A model generated the notes under the pieces. The model searched no databases and had not been told where the DNA came from. It saw only the letters and a program-made list of their open reading frames with translations. A stretch of DNA of 64,000 nucleotides from Candidatus Obscuribacterales bacterium (GTDB lineage: Bacteria; Cyanobacteriota; Vampirovibrionia; Obscuribacterales; Obscuribacteraceae): contig JAGVKG010000006.1 of the NCBI GenBank assembly GCA_020050685.1, forward strand, positions 1-64,000. The letters run 5' to 3'. The first letter of the stretch is position 1. Each line of letters opens with the position of its first letter. Shown piece after piece: positions 45,537-51,147 of the stretch. Made by a program: the position numbers and the translations under genes.

Positions 45537-46136
45537 ATGCGAAAAATTGCTGCATATGCTCTGATGTTAGTCATAGTGCTTTGGCTCGGGCAAGTGGGCA
45601 TCCAATTCGCAAAAGCGGCAAAAGGGGGGAAATCTATGTCAGACCACAATTCTCAAATCGCGGGCAAGAATGTTGATCGGGCGATTTTCGCTGCCGGATG
45701 CTTTTGGAAAGTGCAATATGTTTTTAGCCAGGTACTCGGAGTTGTTGCCACCCGTGTTGGCTATACCGGCGGGCAAGTGGATAATCCAACCTACGAACAA
45801 GTCTGCGAGCACAAGACCGGACATGCTGAAGCAGTCCTTGTCGAATACGATCCGAACAAAGTCAGCTACCACAAATTACTGGAGACTTTCTTTGCCAACC
45901 ATAATCCGACAACCATGAACAGACAAGGACCGGACGTTGGTTCACAATATCGTTCCGCCATTTTCTATGTCACACCCGAGCAAAAGGCAGAAGCGCTCAA
46001 ATATAAAGACGAGCTAACCCGTGCGCATAAGTTCACTTCGCCAATCGTAACTCTTATAGAGCCAGCGACTAAATTCTACGACGGAGAAGAATATCATCAG
46101 GACTATTACAAGAAGCACGGCGCAGTCTGTTATTAA
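45537..46136 (+). CDS. msrA: peptide methionine (S)-sulfoxide reductase, exported
   Basis: Reduces Met-S-sulfoxide in oxidised proteins. A 199-residue MsrA with the catalytic Cys55 in AAGCFWKVQYVF, VGYTGGQVDNPTYEQVC, GHAEAVLVEYD and FANHNPTTMNRQGPDVGSQY, all typical of the family. Residues 1-27 form a signal or anchor (ALMLVIVLWLGQVGIQFAKA), so it works outside the cytoplasm. The family's usual Glu after GCFWxV is Gln here, a change also seen in some homologues. Its stop overlaps the first possible start of msrB (TAATG). Confidence 0.93.
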   Translation: MRKIAAYALMLVIVLWLGQVGIQFAKAAKGGKSMSDHNSQIAGKNVDRAIFAAGCFWKVQYVFSQVLGVVATRVGYTGGQVDNPTYEQVCEHKTGHAEAVLVEYDPNKVSYHKLLETFFANHNPTTMNRQGPDVGSQYRSAIFYVTPEQKAEALKYKDELTRAHKFTSPIVTLIEPATKFYDGEEYHQDYYKKHGAVCY

Positions 46137-46156
46137 TGGTCAAGCCAAGTAAACAA

Positions 46157-46678
46157 ATGAACAGAAGAAGATCCTCAACATTGCTAATTGTCGCGGCTAT
46201 AAGCTTAATGCTTGGAGCCTGCGCAAAAGCAGAAGATAATGCCACCACGAAGGAGAAGGTTATGACCAGCGACGAGAAAACAATGCCGACAGATAAGCAA
46301 TCAGACAGTTACTGGAAAGAAAAGCTTGACGAGCATACATATAAGATTACGCGTTGCAGTGGCACTGAAGCCCCGTTTACCGGCAAGTATTGGAACAATC
46401 ACGAAGACGGCACTTACCGTTGCAGCAATTGCGGCGAAGTGCTCTTTAGCTCCAAGGACAAATTCGATTCAGGCACTGGTTGGCCTAGTTTCACCCGCGC
46501 ACAAGGTGATTCCGTCGACACACGCGCCGACAAATCGGCCGGTATGGTGCGTGAAGAAATAGTTTGCAAACATTGCGGCGCGCACCTTGGACACGTGTTT
46601 GATGACGGCCCGGCACCAACCGGTCAACGCTTCTGCGTCAATTCCGCCTCTCTCGATTTCAAAGGAAATGACAAATAG
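46157..46678 (+). CDS. msrB: peptide methionine (R)-sulfoxide reductase lipoprotein
   Basis: Partner of MsrA, acting on the R isomer. The 173-residue protein has a lipoprotein signal (LLIVAAISLMLGAC). The MsrB core follows: YKITRCSGTEAPFTGKYWNN, two zinc CxxC pairs (CSNC and CKHC), GTGWPSFT, and the catalytic Cys in QRFCVNSASLDF. It is anchored outside the cytoplasm, as MsrA likely is, so the two form an envelope protein-repair pair. The ATG at 46157 gives a normal signal peptide; a start at 46136 is also in frame. Confidence 0.92.
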   Translation: MNRRRSSTLLIVAAISLMLGACAKAEDNATTKEKVMTSDEKTMPTDKQSDSYWKEKLDEHTYKITRCSGTEAPFTGKYWNNHEDGTYRCSNCGEVLFSSKDKFDSGTGWPSFTRAQGDSVDTRADKSAGMVREEIVCKHCGAHLGHVFDDGPAPTGQRFCVNSASLDFKGNDK

Positions 46679-47313: not shown

Positions 47314-47853
47314 CTATGATCCAGAAGTTTGGAAGCGGTGCACATTCACCGGCAAAAAGAGTCTTGTCTCTTCATCGTAAATAGATAGCCAATCATACTC
47401 AGGATCGTAGACAGCCCCACTTACTACCGGCTGCGGGCCAGGCAAGCAACCTGCCAATGCAGATCGGAAAAGTTGCATCTCACGCCATATTATCGCCTCC
47501 GTCTGGCTATAACAGTGCTCGCCGGAGCCGGCAAACTGCACAACATTACTTTCCCGGCTTGGCAATCGCTGGCAACCATGATGTCCACAGAACAAGACAA
47601 GACCTATCTCTGGATTTGCTTGCACGTCGCGAACCAGCCAATTCTGCGAAACATCGGCTTGATCTGCAAGACCAGCCAAGCCTCCCTCCGCCTCAATTAC
47701 CTTCAGCGAACCAACCTGATTCACGATCAGGGATGCATTCATGGCTTGCGGCTCCGAGCAAGTTACCGCAATTACATTAGGCCTTTCTTGATTCAATTCA
47801 AATGGGTTGCGCATTTTTGCAGCAACATCAAGACATGACGATTCGTCACTCAT
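47314..47853 (-). CDS. beta-carbonic-anhydrase-like protein
   Basis: A 179-residue protein with the beta-CA metal pattern: Cys32 in AVTCSEPQ, and His91 and Cys94 in VLFCGHHGCQRL. The Asp-Arg dyad of the family (CSDSR) is replaced by Glu34 and Gln36, so either activity is altered or Glu substitutes for Asp. It is the last gene of a four-gene operon with a SulP transporter, which fits CO2/bicarbonate interconversion next to bicarbonate uptake. AAGGAGA precedes the ATG. The family call rests on these motifs, as overall similarity is low. Confidence 0.6.
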   Translation of the reverse strand: MSDESSCLDVAAKMRNPFELNQERPNVIAVTCSEPQAMNASLIVNQVGSLKVIEAEGGLAGLADQADVSQNWLVRDVQANPEIGLVLFCGHHGCQRLPSRESNVVQFAGSGEHCYSQTEAIIWREMQLFRSALAGCLPGPQPVVSGAVYDPEYDWLSIYDEETRLFLPVNVHRFQTSGS

Positions 47854-47932
47854 GAAATTCTCCTTGCGTCATCACAAATGCCAGGCAGCACATGCCTGTG
47901 CAACCGGGCAAGACAAATTTGGAGATTGATTT

Positions 47933-48391
47933 TTAGAGTAACTTAGAACAGTTCATTAGCCAAATTGGCACTCTTCTATGCGCCTTGGCCACTAAATCTT
48001 GACGCGCAAACAGCTGCCCTTCCGCCTTGACCGCCATATCAAACAAGGTCGGCGAAATCGCCACCTTAACTGTTGCACCACAACTTGTGCTACCACCACC
48101 GGGTTGTCCGCGATAGGAAAGGAGAACCGGATGCAAATGATGCATGGGCTTGCGGCCTGGAAAATCAAGCGACTCATGTTCTTCCGACATTGCAGATTCA
48201 GCCGCCGGCATGGCCAATGAAGTGACAACTGCGAAATTAAAGAGCCAAACAAACAGAAACATAACGGACACGAAAATAGTTGGCGTCAGCCAATTGTGCA
48301 TTCGCCCCAAAGCAGACGGTTGCAAGCTGAACGAAGCTTCACTTCGCCGTGATATCACTTTGCCTGTATCGTTCGTTCCTATGACGCTCAC
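47933..48391 (-). CDS. single-pass membrane protein, unknown
   Basis: A 152-residue protein with one membrane helix (~35-58, TIFVSVMFLFVWLFNFAVV), a His-rich bit after it (PMHHLHP), and a C-terminal domain I do not recognise. Its GTG start lies 5 bases after the UspA-like stop and it is followed by the carbonic-anhydrase-like gene 79 bases on. The tight spacing is the best evidence that it is real. It may be an accessory part of the SulP system. Confidence 0.55.
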   Translation of the reverse strand: MSVIGTNDTGKVISRRSEASFSLQPSALGRMHNWLTPTIFVSVMFLFVWLFNFAVVTSLAMPAAESAMSEEHESLDFPGRKPMHHLHPVLLSYRGQPGGGSTSCGATVKVAISPTLFDMAVKAEGQLFARQDLVAKAHRRVPIWLMNCSKLL

Positions 48392-48396
48392 CTTAT

Positions 48397-49005
48397 TTAA
48401 GTGCGGCCCGTTTGATATTGCATTTCGGGAAGTACTGTCTGCTCTTGTTCTCTAACAACTTGATCGGGACTTAATTGAGTATCTAAAGATTGAATAACCT
48501 GAACATCGCAGCGCGCCGATTTCTTTATTTGCTTGATTAACCCGCCACCAAACAAGCGCTTGCCTTTTTGCGGTTTTGCAAACAATAATATACGATCCGC
48601 TATCCAGTCAATAGCCACCTGGCTGATGGACTGCCCTTCAACGCTGGCAGCCAAGACCTGCCACGATGTTCGAACTCCCGGATGATGCTTGGCCAAGCGC
48701 GATGAGAGAGCCATGAGCAGCTCTTTGCCATTTGCCAGCGCCTCTTCATGCTCATCAGTCATTAGCAGTGCCGCAGCACCGGAATATGGCATATCCGTCC
48801 ACCACTTTGGCTCAACCAGATGAACCAACATCAAATCACATTGAGCCGATTCCGGATTTTTTTCAAGCCAGCCAACCAGCATTTCAGCGGTTTGCTCGTT
48901 CTTTACTGGCACTAATATTTTTTTGAGCATAACATTAGATCTTGCATCAACGGCCTTTGCAAGCATCTCCGATACTACTTGAGTTCTTCCAAACTGGTTA
49001 TTCAT
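48397..49005 (-). CDS. UspA-like universal stress protein
   Basis: A 202-residue protein with a UspA-type fold at ~27-165. The first strand is KKILVPVKNEQTAEML, followed by the DLMLVHLVEP strand, and a helix-strand pair ending in VAIDWIADRILLFAKPQKGK. A G-rich loop follows (GKRLFGGGLIKQI), which may bind ATP, as in many Usp proteins. The ATG overlaps the SulP stop as ATGA, so translation is coupled. Usp proteins encoded with SulP transporters are known in several phyla and probably regulate transport. Confidence 0.75.
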   Translation of the reverse strand: MNNQFGRTQVVSEMLAKAVDARSNVMLKKILVPVKNEQTAEMLVGWLEKNPESAQCDLMLVHLVEPKWWTDMPYSGAAALLMTDEHEEALANGKELLMALSSRLAKHHPGVRTSWQVLAASVEGQSISQVAIDWIADRILLFAKPQKGKRLFGGGLIKQIKKSARCDVQVIQSLDTQLSPDQVVREQEQTVLPEMQYQTGRT

Positions 49006-50486
49006 CGTGAACTCCTTTCTTTAATACTGTCTTCCCGAAGGCTCACTGCTTTATCAACACTGGACTGAACTCTGGCGTATGCAGCGGCTTGCCTCCTGTT
49101 GAGAATTAGTGAACCGACTCCATAAATAATCAGAGCGGACAAGACACCGGTGAGAAAATCCGTAAGCGGCACCATGACAGCTGTGTAAACCATCAAGAAA
49201 GCGTGGAAGCGTCCTTGGTGCCAAACTTCCTTGATCTCAGCGACTTTCACCATATTGGTCGCAACCCAGAGAAGAATCCCACCAATGCAGGCCATGGGAA
49301 CCATTTCCAGCCATGGTGCAAGATAAAGCGCTAAGGCAATTTTGAGAATACCTTTGAAATATCCGGCCATTGGTGTCATGGCTCCGGCTTTGATACTGGT
49401 GGCAGTGCGCGCCAATGCGCCTGTGCACGGGAAGCCATTAACCATTGGTACGATTATTTGTACCAGCCCTTGTCCCCACAATTCTTTGTCGGGATTAAAT
49501 GGCGTCTTCTTGTTATTAGCCAAGCGATCGGCCATTGATGAGCACAACAAGCTTTCGACGCTGGAAACAAAAACAATCGCTAAGACAAAATAGGCAATGT
49601 CCATGCCCAGTTGTGGTGTGAATGCCGGCATGGAAGGCGGCGTGAAAACAAAGAAATTCGAAGGGATGCTGCCATACTTCAAGCCAACATCAGCAATGCC
49701 CCTATCGCTAAAGATTGTCTCAGAAAGTAATGTACATAGAGCAAGCGCCAAGAGTGGTGCCGGAATAAAAATTGAGATCTTCAGCAGTCTTCGTGTCATG
49801 ACAAATGTAAGCATCGCCAAGAAAAATGAATATCCATTGAATTCATGGAAGTACTGACCAATGAGTTTGATTTTTTCAAAGAACTCGCCACGAATTGCGT
49901 GCTCAAGTCCCAACACCTCGCCGATATTTGAAAGTGCGATGACGACTGCAATTCCGACGCTAAAGCCAACGACAATTGAATTTGGCACACGTTTGACATA
50001 TTTGCCCAGCCCCAAAATTCCCATGCCCAGCAAAATTACACCGGCAAAGACTGAACAGAGAACCAAGAGTCCATGCGCTTCGGCAAAACTTCCGCCCGTG
50101 GCATGATGACCATATTTCAACATCAGCGCGGCAATCACAGGAATGAATGCTGCCGTCGGTCCATAGACTTGATATTTTGATCCGCCCCAAGTGCGACCAA
50201 TAATGCAAGCCAGTGCGCCAGCAACAATTCCTTGTTCCGGTCTTAGACCCATGGCGATCGCAAATCCCATGGCCATTGGGATGGCGGTAAGTGCCACCAC
50301 AAATGCGGCGCTTAGATCACGATAAGTTGTACTAAGCCACGACTCGCGAGTTAGATCTTCAAATCGTTGATCGAAGACGGTGTTGAATTGCAAAAGCCGT
50401 TGCCAGAGCATTGGCAAGAAGGCTGCCTCAGCCGCCACCGATTCTTCCAAATTACGCGAAATTATACTGACATTATCCTTAGCCAT
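49002..50486 (-). CDS. SulP-family anion transporter, bicarbonate candidate
   Basis: A ~494-residue inner-membrane carrier of the SLC26/SulP family with 12-14 predicted helices. Family marks: DLSAAFVVALTAIPMAMGFA, the YQVYGPTAAFIPV substrate loop, ESLLCSSMADRL and VNGFPCTGALARTATSIK. No STAS domain follows, so regulation must differ from typical SulP. The ATG at 50486 has AAGGAA about 9 bases upstream; the frame opens at 50609. Linkage to a carbonic-anhydrase-like gene and UspA favours bicarbonate over sulfate, as in BicA/DAUER-like systems; this is inference. Confidence 0.85.
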   Translation of the reverse strand: MAKDNVSIISRNLEESVAAEAAFLPMLWQRLLQFNTVFDQRFEDLTRESWLSTTYRDLSAAFVVALTAIPMAMGFAIAMGLRPEQGIVAGALACIIGRTWGGSKYQVYGPTAAFIPVIAALMLKYGHHATGGSFAEAHGLLVLCSVFAGVILLGMGILGLGKYVKRVPNSIVVGFSVGIAVVIALSNIGEVLGLEHAIRGEFFEKIKLIGQYFHEFNGYSFFLAMLTFVMTRRLLKISIFIPAPLLALALCTLLSETIFSDRGIADVGLKYGSIPSNFFVFTPPSMPAFTPQLGMDIAYFVLAIVFVSSVESLLCSSMADRLANNKKTPFNPDKELWGQGLVQIIVPMVNGFPCTGALARTATSIKAGAMTPMAGYFKGILKIALALYLAPWLEMVPMACIGGILLWVATNMVKVAEIKEVWHQGRFHAFLMVYTAVMVPLTDFLTGVLSALIIYGVGSLILNRRQAAAYARVQSSVDKAVSLREDSIKERSSR

Positions 50487-50635
50487 ACTCACAGATTCCT
50501 TTGTATAGAAGGTGTCTTTGTAGGTAGATGGACACTCAAGCGCTTGAATGCCGGTTTTGAAACACTGCAAAACAGAGCCGCCGCCCCTTGTCGGTGCAGC
50601 CTTTGACATCTATTCGTGTTGTTATATAGCGATAT

Positions 50636-50662
50636 TACAATATGACGATGCGACAATATTAC
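50636..50662. promoter_or_regulatory. possible ArsR operator in the SulP-arsR gap
   Basis: An imperfect repeat, AATATGACG ... CGACAATATT, with flanking ATATTA copies, lies in the region between the divergent SulP operon and arsR-type genes. ArsR family sites are often such AT-rich dyads. The match is weak. Confidence 0.3.
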
Positions 50663-50793
50663 TAGCGATCCCCGGATTTGTCAACATACCGGGAATTTGC
50701 CGCCCCTGCAAGGTTTGCCGCTTTCAGGGCAAATAGCGTCGTGATAGTATTAAGGCGCCCTGGTATTAATGTAGAGTCGAATTCCGAGGTCGC

Positions 50794-51147
50794 ATGCCAA
50801 AACATTTAGTGGCAATCGAACTAGCAAAATTATTCGGAGTGCTGGCACATCCTCTGCGCGTGGAAATTGTCGAAGAGCTGCGCGACCGTGAATTAACTGT
50901 CAACGATTTGCAAAAAGGATTGAGCGTTGCGCACGCCTCAGTCTCGCAACACTTAGCGATTCTGCGCAGCAATCGCGTCGTAATCGAACGTCGTGAAGGA
51001 CGCCACGTCTACTATCATTTGCGCAATCCAGAAATGGCACAAGCCGTCGCGATCTTTTTGTCTTTCGTATCGCCAGACACTTCAGAATCAGACCGCATTT
51101 TATCTGCAATTAAGTCAGCCAAGAGCCAATGGTCTCAAGACAAATAA
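50794..51147 (+). CDS. ArsR-family transcriptional regulator
   Basis: A 117-residue winged-helix protein: LAKLFGVLAHPLRVEIVEEL, then the recognition region LSVAHASVSQHLAILRSNRVV and the wing IERREGRHVYYHL. No Cys-pair metal site is visible, so the signal is probably not a thiol-bound metal. It is divergent from the SulP-Usp-CA operon, which it likely represses. Start ATG at 50794 with GAGG upstream. Confidence 0.85.
   Translation: MPKHLVAIELAKLFGVLAHPLRVEIVEELRDRELTVNDLQKGLSVAHASVSQHLAILRSNRVVIERREGRHVYYHLRNPEMAQAVAIFLSFVSPDTSESDRILSAIKSAKSQWSQDK

Follow-up and report, generated by a model that had tools for sequence, protein, structure and literature searches.

What is the function of a short open reading frame (ORF) wedged into an apparent inorganic-carbon operon of a non-photosynthetic relative of the cyanobacteria? 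The locus lies at positions 47314–51147 of the window, by which we mean the whole 64,000-nt stretch that was analysed (bases 1–64000 of contig 9 in a 4.2-Mb assembly of 70 contigs, from a Candidatus Obscuribacterales bacterium). It comprises a gene for an ArsR-type regulator and, divergent from it, genes for a SulP anion transporter, a UspA-like protein (Usp), the ORF in question and a protein that resembles β-carbonic anhydrases (CAs), called CA-like below. The initial annotation had described this as a likely bicarbonate-uptake locus in which the ORF encodes a single-pass membrane protein. With mechanical ORF calls, the five genes were found in the positions and order given there: the SulP and Usp genes share 4 nt (ATGA), Usp and the ORF are 5 nt apart, the ORF and the CA-like gene 79 nt, ArsR is divergent and SulP has no STAS domain. 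The supposition that the host is a non-photosynthetic cyanobacterial relative holds as well, since the genome belongs to the family of Candidatus Obscuribacterales.

Our answer is that a leader ORF is a better reading here than a single-pass membrane protein. For the locus as a whole we favour, with a probability of roughly one in two, an ArsR-controlled inorganic-carbon operon in which the leader tunes a pseudo-CA. The reading is built on gene order, homologies, residue losses in the CA-like protein, a motif anchored at the stop codon of the leader, the constraint on this motif at the protein level, and the recurrence of such leaders before carbon and ion genes.

In the mechanism that we infer, ArsR would control an operon for inorganic carbon, and SulP would move an anion, most likely bicarbonate, with Usp as a cytoplasmic partner that replaces the STAS domain. 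The CA-like protein would be a former β-CA that binds zinc and perhaps bicarbonate, and a role as sensor or regulator of SulP would be likelier than CO2 hydration. The leader would be targeted to the membrane during its synthesis by the N-terminal segment, and ribosomes would be slowed or stalled at its stop codon by the 11 residues before it. The parked ribosome would cover RNA that is otherwise paired with the Shine–Dalgarno (SD) sequence and start of the CA-like gene, whose synthesis would in this way be adjusted to what the exported middle of the leader senses.

The putative leader ORF and its family

The candidate leader ORF (47933–48391, minus strand) encodes 152 residues from a GTG start, or 122 from an alternative ATG at 48301, and matches no family in Pfam or NCBIfam. 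Its N-terminal segment is hydrophobic, its middle is variable and its last 11 codons (47936–47968, minus strand) encode the stop-anchored motif PIWLMNCSKLL, so that it can be regarded as a putative nascent-chain sensor; its export is judged by hydropathy only, with a maximum of 2.44 at residue 39. The leaders that stand before CA-like genes share only the hydrophobic segment and the last 11 residues. The host genome has several paralogues (three strong profile matches and a weaker one on contig C31), and two leader-type ORFs are found elsewhere in it, directly before a canonical CA gene and before a SulP gene on contig C16.

Two profile searches gave a family of 44 candidate leaders with the C-terminus [PRK]LWLLNRSLLI directly before the stop codon, chosen by eye from the matches that reach the end of the model, with matches inside longer ORFs excluded. 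Comparison of ten of them with Pfam and NCBIfam returned weak, unrelated matches below cut-off, and no DUF2946. Searched with a degenerate DNA pattern for the tail, 50 genomes of the host family gave 50 matches, compared with 13 for the backwards control. Among the 20 fetched stretches and the known loci that were read, six matches were true ends of leader ORFs, and those ending ORFs of 26–46 aa or one of 352 aa were discarded as chance.

Conservation is concentrated at the stop codon. In 33 non-redundant leaders, positions −1 to −11 carry 1.4–4.9 bits and positions −12 to −40 only 0.2–1.1 bits, and eight leaders that were identified through their position ahead of CA-like genes, and were viewed separately, have Leu at −2, Trp or Cys at −9, and Leu or Phe at −8 in 8/8 cases each. 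The last 12 codons contain 25 synonymous and 10 nonsynonymous differences, compared with 137 and 224 in the rest of the ORF (Fisher 2e-4; six of 11 computed pairs, selected so that no member is shared). Because nonsynonymous changes are thus depleted at the very end, the constraint acts there on the protein.

A regular expression for the tail was run on 110 loci, of which 80 are named loci and 30 belong to the host family, the window included. It matched 9 of 5043 ORFs of at least 60 residues, and all nine are leaders, two of them being the same sequences under two names. The expression was written from the leaders and tests specificity only; it recovers seven of the 11 leaders among the family loci used, missing four, and 37/44 overall. 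A pattern for the R-type motif gave five matches in three of 386 genomes of the phylum, none at the end of an ORF of more than nine codons; the form in the window's own genome is not matched by this pattern and no other genome of the family was noticed in the sample, so that a restriction to the family is not implied.

Turning to the genes that follow, 36/44 leaders have a same-strand ORF start within 180 nt downstream, and 35 of these targets fall into recurring classes. Nine are CA-like, one is a canonical CA, two are SulP, three are SulP-STAS proteins with a CA-like tail, 12 are cation/proton antiporters of CPA2 type, six are Cys-rich proteins, one is an RND permease and one is of HlyD/CusB type. 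All 12 antiporters reach 5e-152 or better against a single query, with three verified in Pfam. Looked at from the other side, nine of the 13 CA-like genes known to us are preceded by a leader at a spacer of 57–123 nt, counting chosen downstream starts; the mechanical ORF starts would instead give 3 nt in L014 and 44 nt in L015.

The Cys-rich targets, of 139–156 aa, are homologous to each other and possibly copper-storage proteins; neither of the two that were compared with Pfam has a match. The leaders before them themselves contain several Cys (L273:2183-2584 on contig C31 of the host genome, L277, L274, L270, L268 and L237). The SulP-STAS targets (L233:2258-4762, L234:2096-4597 and L245:3127-5631) have 833–834 aa and each follows a leader ORF. 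In L233, the only one whose tail was read, the C-terminal part is a divergent β-CA-like domain that keeps C-I-D-Y-R and is undetected by Pfam. Locus L076 (SBAT01000142.1) is titled as a Chloroflexi bacterium; its gene layout equals that of contig 216 of genome G224, from the window's family, and it is probably mislabelled.

Predicted RNA structure between leader and target

The RNA around the 79-nt spacer (47834–47950, minus strand, 117 nt) is predicted to bury both the SD sequence and the start codon from which the CA-like gene is translated. Its minimum free energy is −36.0 kcal/mol, compared with −25.6 (standard deviation 3.35) for shuffled sequences, i.e. z −3.10, with one of 200 shuffles as stable. 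In the predicted fold, UCUCC at 47925–47921, 8–12 nt past the leader stop, pairs with the SD sequence (47860–47865), and the beginning of the CA-like gene is paired with the final codons of the leader. If the 12 nt that follow the stop are removed before folding, which mimics a ribosome sitting there, the calculated probability that the SD sequence is unpaired rises from 0.06 to 0.31.

The same calculation for 42 leaders, near-copies and doubtful targets included, gives a mean rise of 0.20 versus 0.05 in shuffles (p 0.002). When ordinary gene pairs from these genomes serve as the reference, and with ten near-copies excluded, a rise above 0.2 is seen in 13/30 leaders versus 14/68 pairs (Fisher 0.028), and the starting accessibility of the SD sequence is lower in the leaders (p 0.016). 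The leader spacers are also predicted to fold more stably, with a mean z of −1.76 (31 spacers, 11 near-copies excluded) compared with −0.86 in 97 ordinary spacers (p 0.005). Taken together, the RNA predictions are supportive of leader control, not decisive.

A number of observations weigh against our reading. The family was collected with profiles that contain the C-terminus, and its uniformity is thus partly selected; the eight leaders found by place show the motif more loosely, and 43/44 tails are without the double proline of the CutF, CruR and RAPP stallers. Five leaders (L242, L269, L276, L286 and L287) have no clear target, and four others (L243, L279, L284 and L285) precede homologous repeat proteins only at 378–581 nt. 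Four of the 13 CA-like genes have no leader, three of them being tightly coupled to the preceding gene (4, 4 and 24 nt) and one standing at 175 nt, and in L016 a leader–CA-like pair has no SulP nearby. As to the RNA, the rise sets leaders apart from ordinary pairs only weakly: a rank test between the two is not significant (p 0.08), strongly buried SD sequences (unpaired probability below 0.1) are no commoner in leaders (7/30 versus 13/68), and for L015, L018 and L021a, which stand before carbon genes, the effect is clearly opposite.

The four leaders at a distance have tails such as PQPLWLLNRSLLI, and the repeat protein after L285, the only one checked, is assigned to HEAT/LRV by Pfam. The gap of 378–581 nt may hold a short gene that was not called or an RNA.

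Another possibility is that the 152-aa ORF acts in trans, as a secreted or membrane partner or as the precursor of a signalling peptide whose tail binds a common receptor. The hydrophobic N-terminal segment and conserved hydrophobic C-terminus would fit exported peptide precursors, and the presence of several paralogues per genome would fit too. A role in trans would, however, leave aside that 36/44 leaders have a same-strand ORF start so close downstream, that their targets belong to unrelated protein families, and that the spacers are predicted to fold more stably than ordinary ones. We regard it as a possible but rather unlikely explanation.

The arrest sequences of SecM, VemP and MifM are not known to be related to the leader tail. 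These systems resemble the arrangement proposed here in that a membrane-targeted nascent chain arrests near its C-terminus and the downstream gene is released; they differ in serving to monitor protein export and in standing before Sec or YidC genes. A closer likeness is CutF of Rhodobacter capsulatus, an exported leader that is reported to sense copper through its nascent chain and to stall at its C-terminus, by which a stem covering the next SD sequence is opened (PMC9973294). The same paper reports CutF-like proteins at the head of RND, HlyD/CusB, OEP and other metal genes, from a search with three filters: PP among the 15 C-terminal residues, an ORF under 150 aa and a same-strand gene within 1000 nt downstream. 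Common to CutF as described there and to our family are the small exported ORF (export being judged from hydropathy here), the short same-strand spacer, the motif at the stop and the predicted SD-burying stem. The differences are that PP occurs in the last 15 residues of only one of 44 leaders (L275) and not in the window's, and that the targets include CA-like proteins, CAs, SulP and CPA2 antiporters, with no DUF2946 in the ten leaders tested. Since the proline feature is lacking and DUF2946 is not matched, we do not assign the family to CutF.

In the CruR upstream ORF of Bordetella pertussis, the nascent chain is reported to sense metal and to control the next genes (PMC9426467). CruR is reported to use a CXXC motif, RAPP and Rho termination, and differs in this from the present family, which has another tail and a predicted SD-burying stem. 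Among the matches listed in a limited literature search on leader peptides, and in passages of PMC10987492, neither this tail nor a leader of carbon genes was seen.

The carbonic anhydrase-like protein

The CA-like gene occupies 47314–47853 on the minus strand. Its product matches no Pfam or NCBIfam model at E ≤ 1, and its best match in the PDB has an E-value of 0.55. The three other members compared with Pro_CA (cut-off 25.7) gave 13.8 bits (L015), 12.8 bits (L017) and no match (L058), and a single-protein search of a phylum sample of 194 genomes found only the window's own genome. Relatives were obtained with a seven-row profile over 50 genomes of the host family, alongside many canonical CAs; the 13 CA-like loci, with the window's included, come from the matches that were read, namely the highest-scoring ones and some 20 more. 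A profile of these 13 sequences reaches CcaA (5swc), the β-carboxysomal β-CA, at 2.3e-8, and the resemblance to β-CA is for this reason judged to be real but remote.

An AlphaFold2 model, with canonical CAs in the input alignment, has a pLDDT (predicted local distance difference test) of 74, and its best Foldseek match is again CcaA (6.4e-6), with only moderate template-modelling scores of 0.53–0.59 and root-mean-square deviations of 8.1–9.5 over the four 5swc chains listed. CcaA is thus the closest solved relative by both sequence profile and fold search. In a tree of 56 rows, with long branches, the 13 sequences form one clade (99/97, present in all 200 bootstrap trees).

The Asp-Arg pair of the C-x-D-x-R motif is catalytic in β-CAs. 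In the CA-like family, all 13 sequences have C32, H91 and C94 as zinc ligands, and W155 and P168 do not vary either, the family having a conserved C-terminal W/P/E motif that distinguishes it from CcaA. The Asp-Arg pair, which CcaA has, is gone: the residue at +2 is E, D or Q, an Arg at +4 is found in 0/13, and the window's sequence reads C-S-E-P-Q. For comparison we examined relatives of the window-type SulP, using the best 80 of 148 confirmed loci in named genomes found with four SulP queries. The 31 CA matches in these 80 loci comprise two CA-like proteins, one truncated sequence, 27 that keep C-x-D-x-R and one that has lost it, so that the motif is kept in 27/28 other CAs with a readable site. 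The one loss is a Gemmataceae β-CA beside a window-type SulP (L116:5285-5971), where the pair was lost independently (C-S-T-E-C) in a protein that Pfam still recognises with 75.6 bits.

A decaying pseudogene was rejected in view of the absence of internal stops in the 13 matches and a ratio of nonsynonymous to synonymous rates of 0.08, which comes from the only close pair, the other pairs being saturated or without a synonymous rate. The CA-like protein is probably a zinc-binding pseudoenzyme, or a sensor or regulator.

The straightforward alternative is plain bicarbonate uptake, with the CA-like protein an active, divergent CA that the membrane protein anchors near SulP. The conserved zinc ligands, the predicted β-CA fold and the linkage of β-CAs to window-type SulP in 30/80 loci all speak for it. 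On the other hand, the Asp-Arg pair is absent from all 13 members and kept in 27/28 other CAs of SulP loci, and the host genome already has two canonical CAs. A canonical CA gene also adjoins the CA-like gene in L018 and lies in the same cluster in L017, because of which a second active CA would be less needed, and the leader family also precedes antiporters and efflux genes. This alternative appears unlikely.

A CA fold without activity, as proposed here, would have a counterpart in the γ-CA-like domain of CcmM, which is kept in a carbon-concentrating system and is mostly inactive where CcaA is present (PMC13249358); CcmM differs from the CA-like protein in being of the γ class and a carboxysome scaffold. 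Literature searches on β-CA pseudoenzymes and on SulP with Usp or DabA returned nothing on such arrangements among the matches listed.

The transporter and its partners

The SulP gene (49002–50609, minus strand) gives 202.6 bits with PF00916 (cut-off 23.2), and no STAS domain is found by Pfam. Its NCBIfam scores, all below cut-off, are 196.9 bits for DauA, 174.7 for sulP and 125.6 for BicA, whose cut-off is 880. BicA (6ki1) belongs to the same SulP/SLC26 family, and its HCO3−/Na+ ligands are T69, D258, T262, G300, A301 and T302 according to PMC13249358. The window SulP aligns with T, E, C, G, A and L at these positions, i.e. 3/6 match: the equivalents of Thr69, Gly300 and Ala301 are kept, and Asp258, Thr262 and Thr302 are replaced by Glu, Cys and Leu.

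In a tree of 33 rows, which is the phylogenetic comparison with BicA that the initial annotation had proposed, the window type forms a separate clade (100/99), and BicA groups elsewhere (100/100) with a SulP from contig C25 of the same genome and the SulP of locus L055. This C25 SulP is the BicA-like one of the genome, with 428 bits to the BicA model (still below the cut-off of 880) and 6/6 identical ligand positions in the alignment. That the window SulP is itself BicA is ruled out by the clade, the ligands, the missing STAS domain and the model score of 125.6/880.

The host genome carries three further SulPs, two of which sit in loci with a canonical β-CA. One is on contig C16; the other, on contig C7 (L020:9449-13279), has ArsR, a canonical β-CA, bestrophin and SulP in one run and is a second inorganic-carbon operon of the genome. 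The ArsR, CA and bestrophin genes of this run also stand beside the CA-like module in L017.

The 80 loci with window-type SulP (best-segment identity 54–76%) come from methanotrophs, Bacteroidota, Planctomycetota, Myxococcota and others. A Usp gene or fusion is present in 61/80 when thresholds are loose, as a fusion in 23 and a separate gene in 42, with both forms in four, and in 54/80 at E ≤ 1e-6; the one fusion tested for this in Pfam, L080, contains two Usp stretches. A β-CA gene or fusion is found in 30/80, by a profile for which CAs from these very loci were part of the input, and DabA and DabB in 4/80 each, with one of each verified in Pfam; all of these are raw counts without a formal background rate. 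DabA occurs in L080, L079, L078 and L096 and DabB in L080, L079 and L096; in these genomes, methanotrophs among them, the two carbon systems, SulP and DAB, are neighbours. The window SulP can thus be assigned, by homology and neighbourhood, to a multi-phylum subfamily linked to Usp and β-CA, and owing to the association with Usp, β-CA and DabA an inorganic-carbon transporter family is suggested, with inorganic carbon or bicarbonate as the likeliest substrate.

The partners of the CA-like gene point in the same direction. ArsR, SulP and Usp each accompany it in 11/13 loci, the exceptions being L016 and L053 (at a contig end), and the set is therefore not a chance one. Among ten such modules examined, SulP is of three types: the window type, that of genomes G199 and G216, and the BicA type, the last in L055, where 5/6 BicA site residues are kept. 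Because ArsR and Usp stay while the SulP type changes, the set appears to serve an anion common to the three carriers, and for the BicA-type carrier this anion is bicarbonate. Usp (48397–49005, minus strand; PF00582 1.9e-8) is the probable cytoplasmic partner of SulP.

That SulP carries sulfate, a dicarboxylate or another anion, and that its link to the CA-like gene is incidental, is improbable: DauA and sulP do score above BicA, though none is over cut-off, the BicA Na+ ligands D258, T262 and T302 are replaced, and the presence of a gene of the 3′-phosphoadenosine-5′-phosphosulfate-reductase family in the host genome, a further point against our reading, means that sulfate may be needed, but the subfamily sits with β-CAs, SulP–CA fusions and DabA in several phyla, and one relative's module has a BicA-type SulP instead.

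Of the original bicarbonate-uptake interpretation, the link to inorganic carbon is thus strengthened (β-CA in 30/80 loci, DabA in 4/80, a BicA-type SulP in one module), and the working CA is not, the Arg of the dyad missing in 13/13. The anaplerotic carbon fixation that had been suggested for the host finds no enzyme in phosphoenolpyruvate carboxylase or pyruvate carboxylase, as neither PF00311 nor PF02436 has a match in the assembly.

The ArsR/SmtB-type regulator (50794–51147, plus strand) scores 83 bits with NF033788 (cut-off 55) and 2.6e-9 with PF01022. It has no cysteine in its 117 aa, and a sulfite- or sulfide-sensing BigR role was rejected for this reason. Upstream of SulP, a consensus scan finds a promoter-like TTGACA-17-TAATAT at 50684–50656 (within 50632–50684, minus strand), where seven such sites were found in the region and 5.0 are expected. 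Adjoining it, the repeat ATATT-GT-AATAT (50643–50632, minus strand), read directly in the DNA, is a possible ArsR operator. Farther out, 45537–46678 of the window holds adjacent genes that we take, from sequence motifs, to be for MsrA-like and MsrB-like methionine sulfoxide reductases, followed by a pseudouridine synthase of RluE/RsuA type.

Conclusions

Beyond the locus itself we make a broader suggestion, to which we give somewhat less than an even chance. The leaders would belong to an undescribed family of nascent-chain sensors, with a non-proline stalling tail and exchangeable exported middles, that sets the translation of carbon, pH/ion and metal genes in Obscuribacterales; the middles would be Cys-rich before Cys-rich, probably copper-related, proteins and His-containing before CA and SulP genes. 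The window's member would control a zinc-binding pseudo-CA that gates SulP.

If this is true, translational sensing by exported leaders, known for protein export and copper, would extend to inorganic carbon and to cation/proton exchange. The stop-anchored tail would then be unlike the proline stallers, and a search that requires PP, such as that described in PMC9973294, would miss nearly all of these leaders. Finally, a clade of β-CA relatives that keeps zinc, lacks the dyad and stays with SulP through an exchange of the carrier makes CA-fold regulators of bicarbonate carriers a testable idea.

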